This document shows positions 6,409 through 36,389 of a stretch of DNA of 64,000 bases, piece by piece. Made by a program: the position numbers and the translations under genes. Source of the stretch: Dehalococcoidia bacterium (GTDB taxonomy: Bacteria; Chloroflexota; Dehalococcoidia; DSTF01; JACRBR01); the NCBI GenBank assembly GCA_021462855.1, contig JAJTXQ010000067.1:66860-130859 (forward strand), read 5' to 3'. The notes below the pieces were generated by a model. It worked only from the letters and a program-made list of their open reading frames with translations. It had not been told where the DNA came from and ran no database searches. Each line of letters starts with the position of its first letter. Within the stretch, counting starts at the first letter, position 1.

Positions 6409-7236
6409 ATGGGTTCGACACTCACCGTCGGCAACGTTGAGATCATGGCGCTGGTGGACGCGACGGCGAGCGCGCCGTGCTCGTTGATGTTCCCCACGCT
6501 CAGCGACGAGCAGTGGGCGCCATACGAAGCGCAGCTCGACGCGCATCGCAACATTCCGCTGACGATCCCCTCGTTCGTGCTGCGGTCGGGAGGGAAGACG
6601 ATCGTCGTCGATACTGGGGTTGGGGCGAAGAACCGGCCGATCTTCCCGAACGGGCGGCTGCCCGACGCGCTCGCGGATGCGGGCATCCGCCTGGAAGACG
6701 TGGACATCGTGCTGGCGACGCACATCCACATCGATCACGTCGGCTGGCACACGACGCTCCGCGGCGAGACGTATGCGCCGACGTTCCCGAACGCCACGCA
6801 CGTGTTCAACCGCGACGAGTACGACTTCTTCACGTCTCCGGCGCAGGTGCCCGTGTGGGAGCACGTGCGCGACTGCGTGTTGCCGCTCGACGGCGCGGCC
6901 GACATCGCGCTGGTCGACGGTGAGCACCGCCTGACCGACGAGATCATGCTGCTGCCGACGCCCGGGCACACGCCGGCGCACGTGTCGGTCGCCATCATGT
7001 CGCAAGGCGAGGCGGCGGTGATCATTGGCGATGTGTGCCACCACCCGGCGCAGATGATCGAATGCGGCTGGTCGCCCGTGTTCGACATGAACCCGGCGCT
7101 CGCCGCCGAGTCGCGCGAGAAGCTGATGCAGCGCATCGAGGACGATCGGATGATCGCGGTCGGCGGCCACTTCGCGCACCCGGGCTTTGGCCGGCTGGTG
7201 CGCGTGGATGGCCGCCGCACGTGGCAGGCGCTGTAG
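6409..7236 (+). CDS. Metallo-beta-lactamase-fold hydrolase (lactonase-like)
   Basis: The 275-residue protein carries the dinuclear zinc motif THIHIDHVGW (HxHxDH) near residue 105, a downstream metal ligand in PTPGHTPAH, and Asp in IIGDVCHHP, followed by a late His (GGHFAHPGFG). The arrangement and length resemble AHL-lactonase or glyoxalase-II-like MBL enzymes acting on small esters, lactones or thioesters; the substrate is not evident. The start at 6409 follows GGAGGGG with good spacing; an ATG at 6388 would add seven residues. It is divergent from ilvE and ends at a strong hairpin. Confidence 0.85.
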   Translation: MGSTLTVGNVEIMALVDATASAPCSLMFPTLSDEQWAPYEAQLDAHRNIPLTIPSFVLRSGGKTIVVDTGVGAKNRPIFPNGRLPDALADAGIRLEDVDIVLATHIHIDHVGWHTTLRGETYAPTFPNATHVFNRDEYDFFTSPAQVPVWEHVRDCVLPLDGAADIALVDGEHRLTDEIMLLPTPGHTPAHVSVAIMSQGEAAVIIGDVCHHPAQMIECGWSPVFDMNPALAAESREKLMQRIEDDRMIAVGGHFAHPGFGRLVRVDGRRTWQAL

Positions 7237-31346: not shown

Positions 31347-32168
31347 GTGGCTTCACGTCCGCCGCGGCTTCGGCTTGTCGAGCCCGACTCGACGGGTCCG
31401 TTGATTACGCAGGAAGGGCGACCGCCCGAGCGCCGCGCGCCGATTGCGTTCGGCCCGGTGGTCGTGCGGCTGCTCACCGTCGGCTGGAGCATCACCGTCA
31501 TCGCGGCGCTGTTCGACGCGTTCGCGGCGCTGCCGCAGTTGCCGTTCATGACGGCGATGGGCATGACGGCGGTGCTCGTGGCCGGCATGTTCGCCCTCAC
31601 GCGCGAGGGCGTGCCGGACTGGCGCGGCGACCCGGCCGTCAAGCCGGTGGAGGCGCCGCCGACGAACGACTTGCTCACCGACTTGCCGACGTTCAACTAC
31701 TTCCAGCAGCGGCTGTCTGACGAGTTTGACCGCACGCGCCGCATGGGCAAGCAGGTATCGGTCGTGCTGATCGACGTGAACAACCTGACCGCCGTCAACA
31801 AGGAGTACGGCGTCAAGGCGGGGGACGAGGTGCTGCGGCACGTCGCGCGCGCGGTGGATGGCACCCGGCGCTACAACGACGTGGTGGCGCGCCTGGGTGA
31901 CGACGAGTTCGGCGTGCTGTTGCTCGACTGCGCGGACGAGGGAGTGCGCGCGTTCATCGACCGGCTTGAGGACCGCCTGGCGAAGGAGTCGGCACTGGTC
32001 GAGGTGGCCGGGCGGGCGGTGTCGCTGTGGGCGGGGATCTGCTCGGGGACGGCGACATCGAGCCCGCAGATCACGCGCGCCGACGACGTGCTGGAGTCCG
32101 CGATGGCGGACCTGAACCATGCCAAGCAGGACCGCGAGCGTCGCCGCCGGCTGTGGCTATCGGCATGA
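31347..32168 (+). CDS. Membrane GGDEF-domain protein (GDDEF variant)
   Basis: The 273-residue protein has two membrane helices (about residues 35-57 and 66-87), then a GGDEF domain: LLTDLPTFNYFQQRL, VVLIDVNNLTAVNKEYG and VARLGDDEFGVLLLD. The second Gly of the signature is Asp (GDDEF), which should weaken or abolish diguanylate cyclase activity. The inhibitory RxxD site (RYND) stands exactly five residues upstream, so c-di-GMP binding is likely. The GTG start follows AAGGGGG. It lies 3 kb from a c-di-GMP riboswitch operon. Confidence 0.85.
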   Translation: MASRPPRLRLVEPDSTGPLITQEGRPPERRAPIAFGPVVVRLLTVGWSITVIAALFDAFAALPQLPFMTAMGMTAVLVAGMFALTREGVPDWRGDPAVKPVEAPPTNDLLTDLPTFNYFQQRLSDEFDRTRRMGKQVSVVLIDVNNLTAVNKEYGVKAGDEVLRHVARAVDGTRRYNDVVARLGDDEFGVLLLDCADEGVRAFIDRLEDRLAKESALVEVAGRAVSLWAGICSGTATSSPQITRADDVLESAMADLNHAKQDRERRRRLWLSA

Positions 32169-33054: not shown

Positions 33055-34563
33055 TCAGGCAGCCTGTTGCTGTTGCTGGCGCGGAGCCGCGGCGGCGTGG
33101 TGCGCGGACTCTTCCTCCTCGCCGCTCCAGCGGATCTCGACGATGCGCTCCCACGCGAGCAGGAATGCCTGCACGCAGTGCGGGTCGAATTGGGTGCCGC
33201 TGCAGCGGATGATCTCGTCGCGCGACGCCTCGACCGAGAGCGCCTTGCGGTACGGGCGGTCGGAGGTCATGGCATCGAACGTGTCGGCGAGGACGAAGAT
33301 CCGGGCGCCCAGAGGGATTTCCTCGGCCGCGAGCCCGTTCGGGTACCCCTTGCCGTCGTAGCGCTCGTGGTGGGCGAGCACGATGGTCGCCGCGCCGCTC
33401 AGGAAGCCGATCTCCTTGATCATGTCGTGGCCAATCTGGGGGTGACGCCGCATGTCGACCCACTCCTCGTCGGTGAGCGGACCGGGCTTGTGGAGGATCG
33501 TGTCCGACACGCCGATCTTGCCGATGTCGTGGAGCAGGCCACCGCGCTGCATGTTCACCCAGTCCTCGGTGCCGGGCTCGACGTGCATGTGATACGCGAT
33601 TTCCATCATGTACCGGGCGACGCGGAGCGAGTGGCCCTTGGTCTCGCGGTCGCGGGCGTCGAGCGCCGAGACGAGCGCTTCGAGCGTGCCGTCGTACGTC
33701 TCGCGCAGCTGGTCAGCCATGTGCAGGATGTCGCGGTTGGCCCTGGAGAGCTCGCGGTTGCGCTTGTTGAGTTCCTCGACGTGCTGGGCGGTCTTGTCGA
33801 TGTACTGCTTGATCGAGAAGCGCATCATGAGCGGCGGGGCGACGAAGGCGAGGACGCCGGCGTAGCCCAGGCCGTCGTAGGCGACGGCGAGCGCGAGCCC
33901 GAGCATGCCAAACACGACATAATGCGGCAGAAGCCACTCGAACTTCTCGCGGAACACCGTGATGATGGACGCCCGGGTTGCCAGGCTGACGGCGGCAGCG
34001 ACGAGCGCGCTGTTCAGGAGGTAATACGCGACGACGGCCGCGAGGGCGATCGGGATGAGCCAGCCGTTAATCGGCAGGCCGCCGCCGGCCAGGTGCAGAC
34101 CGCCGGCGATGACGAGGGCGGTAGCCACGTTCACAAGCACCACCGAGCCGACGTTGAAGAGCCGCTTGTACCAGGCGCCGCCGCCGATATCGGTCGCCAT
34201 TGCGGCGAAGGGACTGACGATGGCGGCGCCCGCCGGGCCGAACAAGAAGGCGACGGCGAAGTCGCCGACGGCGGCGATCGACACCGTGGTGTCGCCGTAG
34301 ATGGTGATCTTCGTGCGGCCGAAGGCGATGGCGAGCAGGCCGAGGATGATCAGCCCCGGGATGTCGTCGGTGTCCAGCCTGGGCGCGAAGGCGCCGACGG
34401 AGAGCAGGCCGACGGCAAAGACGCCGAGCACGTACACCAGCGCGCGCGCCGGAAGGCGCTCGGCGGCGTCCGCCGAATCATCCGCGATGCGAAGGGCGAC
34501 GGGCGCCGGCGTACCGCCGGAATCCGGCACGGGCGGCCCGCCCTGCAAGGGAGCGTTCAGCAT
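33055..34563 (-). CDS. Membrane HD-GYP c-di-GMP phosphodiesterase
   Basis: The 502-residue protein has about eight membrane helices in its first 270 residues, a coiled-coil linker (VEELNKRNRELSRANRD), then an HD-GYP domain. HD-GYP motifs are GHSLRVARYM, LLHDIGKIGV, HPQIGHDM, HHERYDGKGYPNGL and LADTFDAMTSDRPYRKAL. All HD residues and the GYP are present, so hydrolysis of c-di-GMP is expected. The tail is Gln/Ala-rich. MLNAPLQGG was chosen because GGCGGAG precedes it. It follows the sigma factor gene by 77 nt, in the riboswitch-led operon. Confidence 0.93.
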   Translation of the reverse strand: MLNAPLQGGPPVPDSGGTPAPVALRIADDSADAAERLPARALVYVLGVFAVGLLSVGAFAPRLDTDDIPGLIILGLLAIAFGRTKITIYGDTTVSIAAVGDFAVAFLFGPAGAAIVSPFAAMATDIGGGAWYKRLFNVGSVVLVNVATALVIAGGLHLAGGGLPINGWLIPIALAAVVAYYLLNSALVAAAVSLATRASIITVFREKFEWLLPHYVVFGMLGLALAVAYDGLGYAGVLAFVAPPLMMRFSIKQYIDKTAQHVEELNKRNRELSRANRDILHMADQLRETYDGTLEALVSALDARDRETKGHSLRVARYMMEIAYHMHVEPGTEDWVNMQRGGLLHDIGKIGVSDTILHKPGPLTDEEWVDMRRHPQIGHDMIKEIGFLSGAATIVLAHHERYDGKGYPNGLAAEEIPLGARIFVLADTFDAMTSDRPYRKALSVEASRDEIIRCSGTQFDPHCVQAFLLAWERIVEIRWSGEEEESAHHAAAAPRQQQQQAA

Positions 34564-34640
34564 ATCTCCGCCAAGGAATGCGCAGCCCCGATCGCGGAGG
34601 CTCAACTGAATATCGGCATCGGCGGGGAGGCGCCGTAGGC

Positions 34641-35366
34641 TCAGGCGGCCACTTCGAACTGGGCGTTCAGATACCGCTTCAGGTTCGCCAGGATGCGCTT
34701 GTGAAGCTGGCAGACGCGGGACTCGGAAAGCCCCATCATCTCGCCAATCTCGTGGAACGGGCGAGATTCCGCGTATCGGAGCTTCAGGATAGCGCGGTCG
34801 CGCGGGTTCAGGTGGCCGAGCGCCTCGTCGAGCAGCGTGAGCGAGGCGGCGTGGTCGGCAGCCTTCGCCGGGTCGCTGAGGTCGTCCTCGTCCGGCGGGT
34901 CGAGCGATGGCGCGCCCTCGCCGGTGCGGTCCTGGAGCGCGTGCTCCAGCGAAATAAACTTCGATGACGTGTGGCGCATCACCGTCTGGAGGTGCTCGAC
35001 CGGCACGCCGAGGCGGAACGCCACCTCTTTCGGCGTCGGCCAGCGGCCGAGCGTGGCCGAGAGCTCCTGCGACGCGGCATCGATCTCGCGGGCGCTGCGG
35101 CGCACGGAGCGCGGCAGCGGGTCCATCTTGCGGATCGCATCGAGGATGCTGCCGCGGATGCGCCGCACGGCGAAGCTGGCGAAGCTGGTGCCCCGTGTCT
35201 CATCGAACGCATCGACGGCCTGGATGAGGCCTTCGATGCCGTAGCCGAGCGCGTCTTCGCGGTCGAGGCCGAGGGTCTTCTGGTTGTCCGTGGACATGCG
35301 GCTGACGACGAACGCCACCAGCGGCATGTGCTGCATGATCATGTCCTGGCGAGCAGAGCTGCGCAT
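34641..35366 (-). CDS. FliA/WhiG-type RNA polymerase sigma factor
   Basis: The 241-residue alternative sigma-70 factor contains region 2 (HMPLVAFVVSRM, YGIEGLIQAVDAFDE, TSFASFAVRRIRGSILDAIR), a region 3 helix (RWPTPKEVAFRLGVPVEHL) and a region 4 HTH (FHEIGEMMGLSESRVCQLHK). The RGSILDAIRKMDPLPRSVR stretch is diagnostic of the FliA/WhiG/SigD branch. No flagellar genes are seen here, so the regulon is open. The ATG follows GGAGGGG, and the upstream leader carries a c-di-GMP-I aptamer and a terminator hairpin, so expression should respond to c-di-GMP. Confidence 0.94.
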   Translation of the reverse strand: MRSSARQDMIMQHMPLVAFVVSRMSTDNQKTLGLDREDALGYGIEGLIQAVDAFDETRGTSFASFAVRRIRGSILDAIRKMDPLPRSVRRSAREIDAASQELSATLGRWPTPKEVAFRLGVPVEHLQTVMRHTSSKFISLEHALQDRTGEGAPSLDPPDEDDLSDPAKAADHAASLTLLDEALGHLNPRDRAILKLRYAESRPFHEIGEMMGLSESRVCQLHKRILANLKRYLNAQFEVAA

Positions 35367-35389
35367 GCGGGGCCCCCTCCACCGAACGT

Positions 35390-35424
35390 ACAAATGCCGC
35401 CATGCCGGAGTCCGGCAGGCGGCA
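35390..35424 (-). terminator. Attenuator terminator between riboswitch and sigma gene
   Basis: On the minus strand a two-part hairpin (TGCCGCC with GGCGGCA outside, TGCCGG with CCGGCA inside, one bulged T) is followed by TTTGT. It lies between the aptamer and the ribosome site. Confidence 0.75.
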
Positions 35425-35463
35425 ACGCTCGATCACGGTCGTGCCCCGGCGGGGCAGGATCGG

Positions 35464-35542
35464 TCTTCGGCAGCCCGGCTATCCGCGTGGCGGACCCGTG
35501 GCTTTGCGTCCCCGCATTTCAGCGGGTTTGCCTGTTTCGGAC
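35464..35542 (-). promoter_or_regulatory. Cyclic di-GMP-I (GEMM-I) riboswitch
   Basis: The minus strand reads CCGAAACAGGCAAACC, a GAAA-capped hairpin, GGGACGCAAAGCC, a second stem, then TAGCCGGGCTGCC. This is the full GEMM-I consensus, including GCAAACC, GACGCAAAGCC and the closing AGCCGGG. The aptamer is about 100 nt upstream of the sigma gene and is followed by a terminator hairpin, so control is probably by transcription termination. Which ligand state permits read-through cannot be read directly. Confidence 0.93.
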
Positions 35543-35765
35543 CTCAGGACTGGCATCACCTGCCTTCCATGGCGCGCTCCCCACGTCTTCCCAACGTTGC
35601 GCTAACCCTCCTAACGCGCGGCAGGCTGTTTCGTTACAGGTTCTCGCGGGCTTTTTTCGGGCGAATTCGCACCGGCGCCTTGTCAAACCGGTAGAAAACG
35701 CCCTTCGCTTCGGGCATACTACGCAGGATGTACCCGGCGGGCGCCGAGTATGACTTCGGGGTGCG

Positions 35766-36389
35766 ATGGCTCAGCGGCTTGTAGACAGGTTCGAACAGCG
35801 CAAGCTCACGCGCGCGAAGCTCATCGACGCCGCGCTCAAGCTCTTTTCTACGAGCGGGTATGAGCATGCGACCGTGGACGACATCTCGCACGAGGCCGGA
35901 TACTCCAAGGGCGCGTATTACTTCCACTTCTCGACCAAGGAGGACATCCTCCTCGAGCTTCTCCGCATGTGGACGGAGGGGCGGACCGCGATCGTGGCCG
36001 GCGGCGGAGCGGCGAGCGACGGTATTCGCGAGACGATCGAGCGATTCTTCTCGTACGAGGACGCGCAGTGGCACGCTGTGCTCCTGGAGTTCTGGTCGCA
36101 AGCCGTGCGCGTGCCCGAGGTGAGCAAGCGCCTGAGCCAGGCGTACGCCGGTTGGCGCAAAGACCTCTCCGAGGCGTTCGCGCGCGCGGCCTCGGAGGAG
36201 CGTCTGCACGTGGCTTCCCCGGAGGACGCCGCGTCGGTGGTGCTCGCCGCGCACGACGGGCTTGCCGTGCAGTTCGCGATCGGCTCCCCCGGCGGCCGCG
36301 CGATGACCGCCGGCGAGCTTGCCGCTTCGATCATCGCGCCGCTCGAGTCGGCCGAGCCGGCGGCGGAGCGCCGCAGGATCGCGCGCTAG
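35766..36389 (+). CDS. TetR/AcrR-family transcriptional regulator
   Basis: The 207-residue regulator has RAKLIDAALKLFSTSGYEHA, TVDDISHEAGYSKGAYYFHF and KEDILLELLRMW, a standard TetR HTH, followed by the effector-binding domain. A GGGG tract precedes the ATG. It is divergent from the riboswitch-sigma operon and could regulate it or the hydroxyacid dehydrogenase operon downstream; no clear palindrome was found. Confidence 0.9.
   Translation: MAQRLVDRFEQRKLTRAKLIDAALKLFSTSGYEHATVDDISHEAGYSKGAYYFHFSTKEDILLELLRMWTEGRTAIVAGGGAASDGIRETIERFFSYEDAQWHAVLLEFWSQAVRVPEVSKRLSQAYAGWRKDLSEAFARAASEERLHVASPEDAASVVLAAHDGLAVQFAIGSPGGRAMTAGELAASIIAPLESAEPAAERRRIAR

Follow-up and report, generated by a model that had tools for sequence, protein, structure and literature searches.

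Why should the gene of a FliA/WhiG-type sigma factor lie behind a riboswitch for cyclic di-GMP (c-di-GMP) and ahead of a gene whose product probably destroys this same molecule, in a lineage where no flagellum is to be found? The question is raised by a locus on the minus strand of a 64,000-nucleotide (nt) stretch of DNA, here called the window, from a metagenome-assembled genome (MAG) of a Dehalococcoidia bacterium (Chloroflexota; G000, 3.02 Mb in 76 contigs). The original prediction, made from the letters of the window, saw in it one leader-operon unit in which ligand, sensor and remover of c-di-GMP form a feedback loop. The features that it described were confirmed, and its interpretation received partial support. 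Our analysis, which was computational throughout, leads with moderate confidence to a related explanation: the locus would act as a c-di-GMP switch that reinforces itself and governs surface structures as well as, in genomes having one, the archaellum.

The sigma protein has TIGR02479 (FliA/WhiG) as its best family by far, scoring 180.5 bits, 9 below the curated cut-off of 189.6, and for this reason we call it FliA/WhiG-type. Pfam sigma regions 2, 3 and 4 are all found in it. Its best solved relatives are 6pfv and 6pfj, which we take to be the Streptomyces WhiG-RsiG structures, followed by FliA, and the alignment to 6pfv and to FliA is full-length. A Streptomyces-like control by RsiG was considered and dropped: the c-di-GMP motif of RsiG, in the form known to us, has no match in the six frames of the window, to which the search was confined. 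The named relatives of the sigma gene belong to Dehalococcoidia/Chloroflexota MAGs, and the comparison was made on 18 genomes of the window's order, in families f1 to f4 (genomes and loci carry our G and L numbers; L003-L007 were taken as the same contigs as G191, G085, G231, G016 and G148 and counted once). Seventeen of the 18 have an orthologue, namely the window's own genome and 16 others with 55-80% identity; the sole genome without a close one is G212, which is 72% complete.

Conservation of the locus was evaluated by comparing the positions of aptamer and sigma gene matches. A c-di-GMP-I aptamer lies directly upstream of the sigma gene in 15 of the 17 loci; the two without it, G070 and G114, both belong to f2, and neither genome has a c-di-GMP-I match anywhere. 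An HD-GYP homologue is the next gene after the sigma gene in 13/17 (it is not there in G222, G158, G180 and G202), and aptamer, sigma and HD-GYP genes occur together, in the order described in the original prediction, in 11/17. Loss of the aptamer beside a kept sigma gene, which would have refuted the original prediction, is not what these loci show, and the proposal that c-di-GMP controls this gene at the RNA level is well supported by conservation. A different FliA/WhiG-type sigma gene, with 36% identity to that of the window, occurs outside the order in a genome of another family (G031), where an aptamer lies about 230 nt upstream of its matching part; among the matches listed, no further aptamer-sigma pair was seen by eye. 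The G031 case suggests that the coupling may have arisen or spread more than once. We also observed two tandem c-di-GMP-I aptamer matches about 140 nt apart at G100:C11:15425-15757 (L200).

The aptamer itself, originally read as GEMM-I, was recovered by the Rfam c-di-GMP-I covariance models, with 71 bits for RF03167 (c-di-GMP-I-GGC; gathering score 59, E 8.4e-15, cmscan) and 72.3 bits for RF01051 (gathering score 35). The window genome holds two c-di-GMP-I aptamers in total, this one included. The core GGCAAAC ... G[AG]CGCAA ... [GA]CCGA is present in the window and in all 15 aptamer-bearing orthologous leaders; we take its core bases to be G20, A47 and C92 in Vc2 numbering, with G20 and not the A20 of the cyclic GMP-AMP (cGAMP) type. 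The element is a predicted c-di-GMP-I riboswitch, which would bind its ligand and act on expression.

Ahead of the aptamer stands a second conserved element, TG[TA][AT]A[CT]-N15..17-CGTT, which 16 of the 17 sigma leaders contain, among them both f2 leaders that have no aptamer; shuffled sequences gave a mean of 0.08 and a maximum of 1. Promoters of extracytoplasmic function (ECF) sigma factors have an AAC-type -35 and a CGT-type -10 box, and the motif looks like one of them. No ECF sigma gene was tied to the motif. Elsewhere, the frequency of the strict pattern is similar to that of its reversed control; it was rejected as the marker of a larger regulon, and no such regulon is claimed. It should be noted that this motif and the GCCGATA motif treated below were spotted by eye first and counted afterwards. 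The box G[CT]CGATA lies upstream of GGCAAAC in 2 of 16 sigma leaders, one of the two being inside the aptamer itself.

Some further observations concern the same leader region. In each of the seven f1 loci the sigma leader faces a divergent TetR-family gene (window 35766-36389, plus strand), which has relatives there in three f3/f4 loci; its product may regulate the intergenic region that the two share. Both f2 leaders that lack an aptamer (L103 minus, about 2530-2650, and L104 plus, about 6840-6915) show a common GGATGCGA...TCGCATCC stem, placed after the ECF-like motif and before the sigma gene; they gave no credible Rfam match, and the stem is possibly another leader RNA. The ECF-like motif also occurs on both strands, as a near-perfect palindrome CTGTAACG...CGTTACAG, in four f1 genomes (L131 at 2912, L132 at 6134, L133 at 3324 and L134 at 6024); in G085 and G016 the palindrome, and in G051 (L135) a one-strand form of it, is no more than about 1.5 kb away from an OmpR-type response regulator gene.

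What would the sigma factor transcribe? The first candidate is its neighbour. The HD-GYP gene begins 77 nt past the sigma stop codon, as had been noted before, and its product scores 115 bits for PF13487 (HD_5), with a MASE9-like membrane part slightly below cut-off and with the motifs HDIGK and HHERYDGKGYP both intact. Its relatives include 4mcw and 4r8z, and the closest solved one is annotated as a cGAMP phosphodiesterase; the protein probably hydrolyses c-di-GMP. Within 130 nt past the sigma stop codon, the box G[CT]CGATA is found in 13 of the 17 loci (shuffle mean 0.40, maximum 4). With a FliA/WhiG-type promoter conserved between the two genes, the HD-GYP gene is probably among the targets of the sigma factor, which would transcribe it with or without read-through from the leader. 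As far as position and sequence go, this promoter is the direct link between the window's sigma factor and GCCGATA promoters. The feedback through HD-GYP that was originally proposed is thus supported, while the wiring differs from a single leader-operon unit, as the second gene has a promoter before it. A possible maker of c-di-GMP is also nearby, since a GGDEF-domain gene (window 31347-32168, plus strand, 96.8 bits, with GDDEF in place of the GGDEF signature) lies 0.9 kb beyond the HD-GYP gene; four other f1 loci carry relatives of it in the corresponding position.

The same promoter type was then found at other genes. Among the other c-di-GMP-I matches of the order that are unlinked to the sigma gene (n=34, all inspected), 14 have G[CT]CGATA within 100 nt upstream (shuffle mean 0.42) and 23 the looser G[CT]CGA[TC] (3.9). 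The control was made of 22 aptamers from other families of the class, namely those outside the order among 30 listed, high-scoring loci, and gave 0/22 (shuffle mean 0.22) and 5/22 (1.4), respectively. An unsupervised search returned a -35 box of roughly CT-N-[C/A]-A-G-A-T, 12 or 13 nt ahead of the -10, and at 11 of 21 sites a -35-like hexamer has its end 14-15 nt upstream of the -10, no other distance being seen more than twice. This arrangement is close to the FliA/WhiG geometry. In the window genome, the second aptamer precedes the gene of a secreted TSP3-repeat protein, and elsewhere in the order the products of genes behind such aptamers include a subtilase, a TSP3/dockerin protein, TadE/TadG-like proteins, and camelysin/TasA-like proteins accompanied by a signal peptidase. 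At HD-GYP genes that are not next to the sigma gene, promoter scores are strong in G240 and G158 (18.7) and weaker in G180 (14.6); G158 and G180 are among the genomes without HD-GYP beside the sigma gene. As aptamer and HD-GYP-gap sites served to train the promoter matrix, its scores at these sites are not independent; the archaellum sites lie outside the training set.

Two observations accompany these promoters. A CCCTAAGGG dyad recurs by FliA/WhiG-type promoters of aptamer and archaellin genes (L183, L189, L192, L244, L207, L208) and is possibly the operator of a further regulator. Outside the order, at about 2145 of L277 (G002:C134), a TAAAGTTT...CCGATAA promoter was seen by eye to accompany a c-di-GMP-I aptamer that lies ahead of Flp-type pilin and prepilin-peptidase-like genes.

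Whether the ligand would turn the sigma gene off or on, a point on which the original prediction was silent, was evaluated by folding. The hairpin with TTTGT originally described was found, and six of the 15 aptamer leaders (four f1, two f3) had a terminator that could be recognised by eye. In all six, the 5' arm of the terminator is predicted to pair with the aptamer 5' strand, conserved GGC included, before the 3' arm is made. The pairing probabilities are mostly above 0.9, lower in G085 and about 0.96-0.97 at most positions in the window, and the pairing recurs in two families despite different arm sequences. A ligand-bound aptamer would free the terminator arm, therefore transcription would terminate, and we favour an OFF switch on the basis of these folds. 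No clear terminator was seen by eye in the leaders of G016, G231, G148 and family f4, which may act on translation, and folds did not decide the polarity of the target leaders. The alternative is an ON switch, in which c-di-GMP would raise the sigma factor and the sigma factor HD-GYP, a negative feedback limiting c-di-GMP during expression of surface genes. Many aptamer-bearing targets are indeed surface or adhesion-type proteins, a kind that often rises with c-di-GMP, and the terminator arms lie outside the aptamer, besides being unclear in some leaders; but the competition of the terminator arm for aptamer pairing in 6/6 leaders is the layout of an OFF switch, and we think the ON switch unlikely. 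In what follows we keep to the OFF switch.

The next question is what such a switch might serve. The flagellar rod family is present in 0 of the 18 genomes, and a flagellar output was rejected on this ground; the earlier remark that no flagellar cluster is adjacent thus holds genome-wide. Archaellin (PF01917), on the other hand, is found in 14/18, with six matches in G000 (100.6 bits), and a strong arlI match, one copy each, in 13/18. In G000, ArlI scores 631 bits (archaellum-motor cut-off 550) and the FlaH-type protein (ArlH) 259 (cut-off 194); in G051, and only for the copies of this genome, ArlJ scores 449.8 bits against a cut-off of 570 and the stator-like protein falls under its own cut-off. 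In the window's family, arlH-arlI is separate from the archaellin-to-arlJ genes. Six f1 loci were examined for FliA/WhiG-type promoters. In three of them (G148, G231 and G016) one stands 107-108 nt upstream of arlH, and in five (G000, G085, G148, G231 and G016) one lies in the gap from arlI to the small gene that comes next; the scores at arlH and arlI are 15.5-18.4 and the spacers have diverged between genomes. Upstream of arlH, G000 and G085 have a GCCGACAA form, which is weaker. The arlI loci L203-L205 were included owing to a motif match, while the arlH sites and the remaining arlI loci were chosen independently of the motif. No promoter was found just before arlH or just after arlI in six loci of families f2-f4. 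Scores of 15.8 and 22.0 were obtained before the archaellins of G202 and G070.

We propose the following circuit. An ECF-like promoter would start the leader RNA that bears the aptamer. At high c-di-GMP the folded aptamer would leave the terminator 5' arm free, transcription would stop and the sigma factor would not be made; at low c-di-GMP the leader would be read through, and the sigma factor would be made and would read CTACAGAT-N12/13-GCCGATA promoters. The adjacent HD-GYP protein would then be produced, c-di-GMP would fall further and the sigma gene would stay on, in a double-negative, self-reinforcing loop of a type that can be bistable. Other promoters read by the sigma factor would drive surface and secreted proteins, many of them with c-di-GMP aptamers of their own, so that the signal would be read twice, and also parts of the archaellum cluster in the genomes having one. 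The sequence shows the aptamer, the genes and the order in which they stand, and that the two promoter motifs are conserved; the assignment of sigma factors to promoters, the polarity, the behaviour of the loop and the motility output are deduced from it. In a more specific form, which we consider possible and advance tentatively, an OFF riboswitch, a sigma-28-type factor and its HD-GYP target would constitute a bistable motile/sessile switch by which Chloroflexota control an archaellum acquired from Archaea, c-di-GMP being reread by the aptamers of target mRNAs.

Several results weigh against this circuit. The arm-shuffle control of the antiterminator pairing is moderate, as 20, 34, 27, 48, 8 and 6 of 200 shuffles (20 for the window) reach the observed pairing. 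The strict -10 box was not found behind the sigma gene in 4 of the 17 loci. The exact CTAA...GCCGATA pattern, tried as a genome-wide regulon test, has no overall excess over the reversed control and was rejected for this use; only positional conservation counts. For the archaellum, the strict G[CT]CGATA lies within 300 nt before only 3 of 29 archaellin matches (3 more have the GCCGACAA form, as judged by eye, and the remainder neither), G051 has no promoter at arlH or arlI, and the sigma gene is kept without archaellin in G137, G158, G240 and G114, so that the archaellum would be at most one output.

The main doubt, however, is which of two sigma factors would read a given GCCGATA promoter. 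A second FliA/WhiG-type paralogue, 33-38% identical, is present in 16 of the 17 sigma-bearing genomes; the G000 copy passes the TIGR02479 cut-off (194.2 against 189.6 bits) and is adjoined by a hybrid histidine kinase gene. On these grounds the riboswitch could control the window's sigma factor while the paralogue mainly reads the promoters of HD-GYP, aptamer genes and archaellum, the two factors overlapping or competing. We regard this as rather improbable, because the window's sigma gene is directly followed by a conserved promoter and the strict box is missing from the 22 other-family aptamers, though FliA/WhiG-type sigma genes occur in some of the genomes concerned. Finally, a plain riboswitch before a sigma/HD-GYP operon, with no special circuit and with the motifs elsewhere due to chance or to another origin, might be suspected from motifs first noticed by eye and from exact genome-wide counts not over the reversed control in most genomes, but it is very unlikely given a position-specific conservation far over shuffles and over the other-family control, and the recurrence of this promoter type ahead of arlH or behind arlI in several genomes whose spacers have diverged.

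Table 1. Features of the sigma/HD-GYP locus, in window coordinates
Feature	Position	Strand	Basis
Membrane HD-GYP protein, probable c-di-GMP phosphodiesterase, 502 aa	33055..34563	-	HD_5, motifs
FliA/WhiG-type promoter CTACGGCG-N13-GCCGATAT ahead of HD-GYP gene	34610..34638	-	motif located; conserved -10 box
FliA/WhiG-type sigma factor, 241 aa	34641..35366	-	TIGR02479, Pfam, solved relatives
Likely ribosome-binding site of sigma gene, GGTGGAGGGGG	35373..35383	-	7 nt upstream of ATG 35366
Terminator-like hairpin, then TTTGT	35390..35425	-	sequence; present in minimum-energy structure
c-di-GMP-I-GGC riboswitch aptamer	35465..35541	-	RF03167 covariance match
Aptamer 5' strand able to pair with terminator 5' arm (proposed antiterminator)	35530..35540	-	fold pairing probability
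ECF-like promoter motif TGTAAC-N16-CGTTA	35612..35638	-	motif located in sequence; presumed ECF promoter

Apart from the features of Table 1 and their relatives, a tRNA directly followed by a T-box-like match (74.3 bits, below the gathering score of 93) was observed at L103 7059-7384, plus strand.

The self-reinforcing switch that we favour has precedents for its parts. In Clostridioides difficile, the c-di-GMP-I riboswitch Cd1 heads the 23-kb flgB flagellar operon, with sigD one gene inside, and acts as an OFF switch by transcription termination, according to parts of PMC6366702; as here, a class I aptamer leader controls a sigma-28-type factor. Unlike Cd1, in the present locus the sigma gene comes first behind the aptamer, the HD-GYP gene behind it has a sigma-28-type promoter of its own, and a flagellum is absent. 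Control of a WhiG-type sigma factor by c-di-GMP is also known in Streptomyces and Rubrobacter, where sections of PMC8325347 describe an RsiG-(c-di-GMP)-WhiG system whose sensor is a protein anti-sigma factor; the predicted targets of Rubrobacter WhiG include surface appendage genes and diguanylate cyclase/phosphodiesterase (DGC/PDE) genes, with a possible feedback, and its promoter boxes are given as -35 TAAA and -10 GCCGATAA. Boxes of the TAAA/GCCGATAA type stand behind the window's sigma gene in 13/17 loci, the paralogue being also present. Unlike in RsiG-WhiG, the c-di-GMP sensor here is an RNA in the sigma mRNA, and no RsiG motif is found in the window. By analogy, the circuit might work like the Cd1-sigD RNA control joined to the Rubrobacter WhiG regulon, with RNA replacing RsiG.

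For the phosphodiesterase, E. coli offers a parallel, as FliA drives PdeH (YhjH). To our knowledge, neither PdeH nor BifA of Pseudomonas putida is an HD-GYP enzyme encoded beside the sigma gene. FliA controls BifA, according to the abstract of PMC5300878, and in both species, as proposed here, a sigma-28 factor thus transcribes a c-di-GMP phosphodiesterase and lowers c-di-GMP; unlike our case, that abstract describes no riboswitch on the sigma gene. Concerning the archaellum, parts of PMC12488501 report Chloroflexota clusters without flagella in Dehalococcoidia, and arlB, a stator-like gene, arlH, arlI and arlJ are found in the surveyed order too. Its main text, searched for "c-di-GMP" and "promoter", contains neither, whereas we propose that the archaellum is served by a bacterial sigma-28-type promoter and by a c-di-GMP circuit. 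A literature search, from which preprints and most subscription journals were absent, returned no report of this arrangement and nothing on how bacteria regulate archaella. What appears to be new is the ECF-like motif, the sigma-type promoter at HD-GYP, the occurrence of the same promoter type across the order and the predicted antiterminator pairing.

Bacterial archaella have been described only recently, and this locus offers a concrete, testable circuit made of an RNA sensor, a sigma factor, a phosphodiesterase and defined promoters. If the proposal is true, the part that the protein RsiG plays in Actinobacteria in controlling a WhiG-type sigma factor would here be played by an RNA, and the locus would show how bacteria wired a borrowed archaeal-style motor into their own lifestyle switch.

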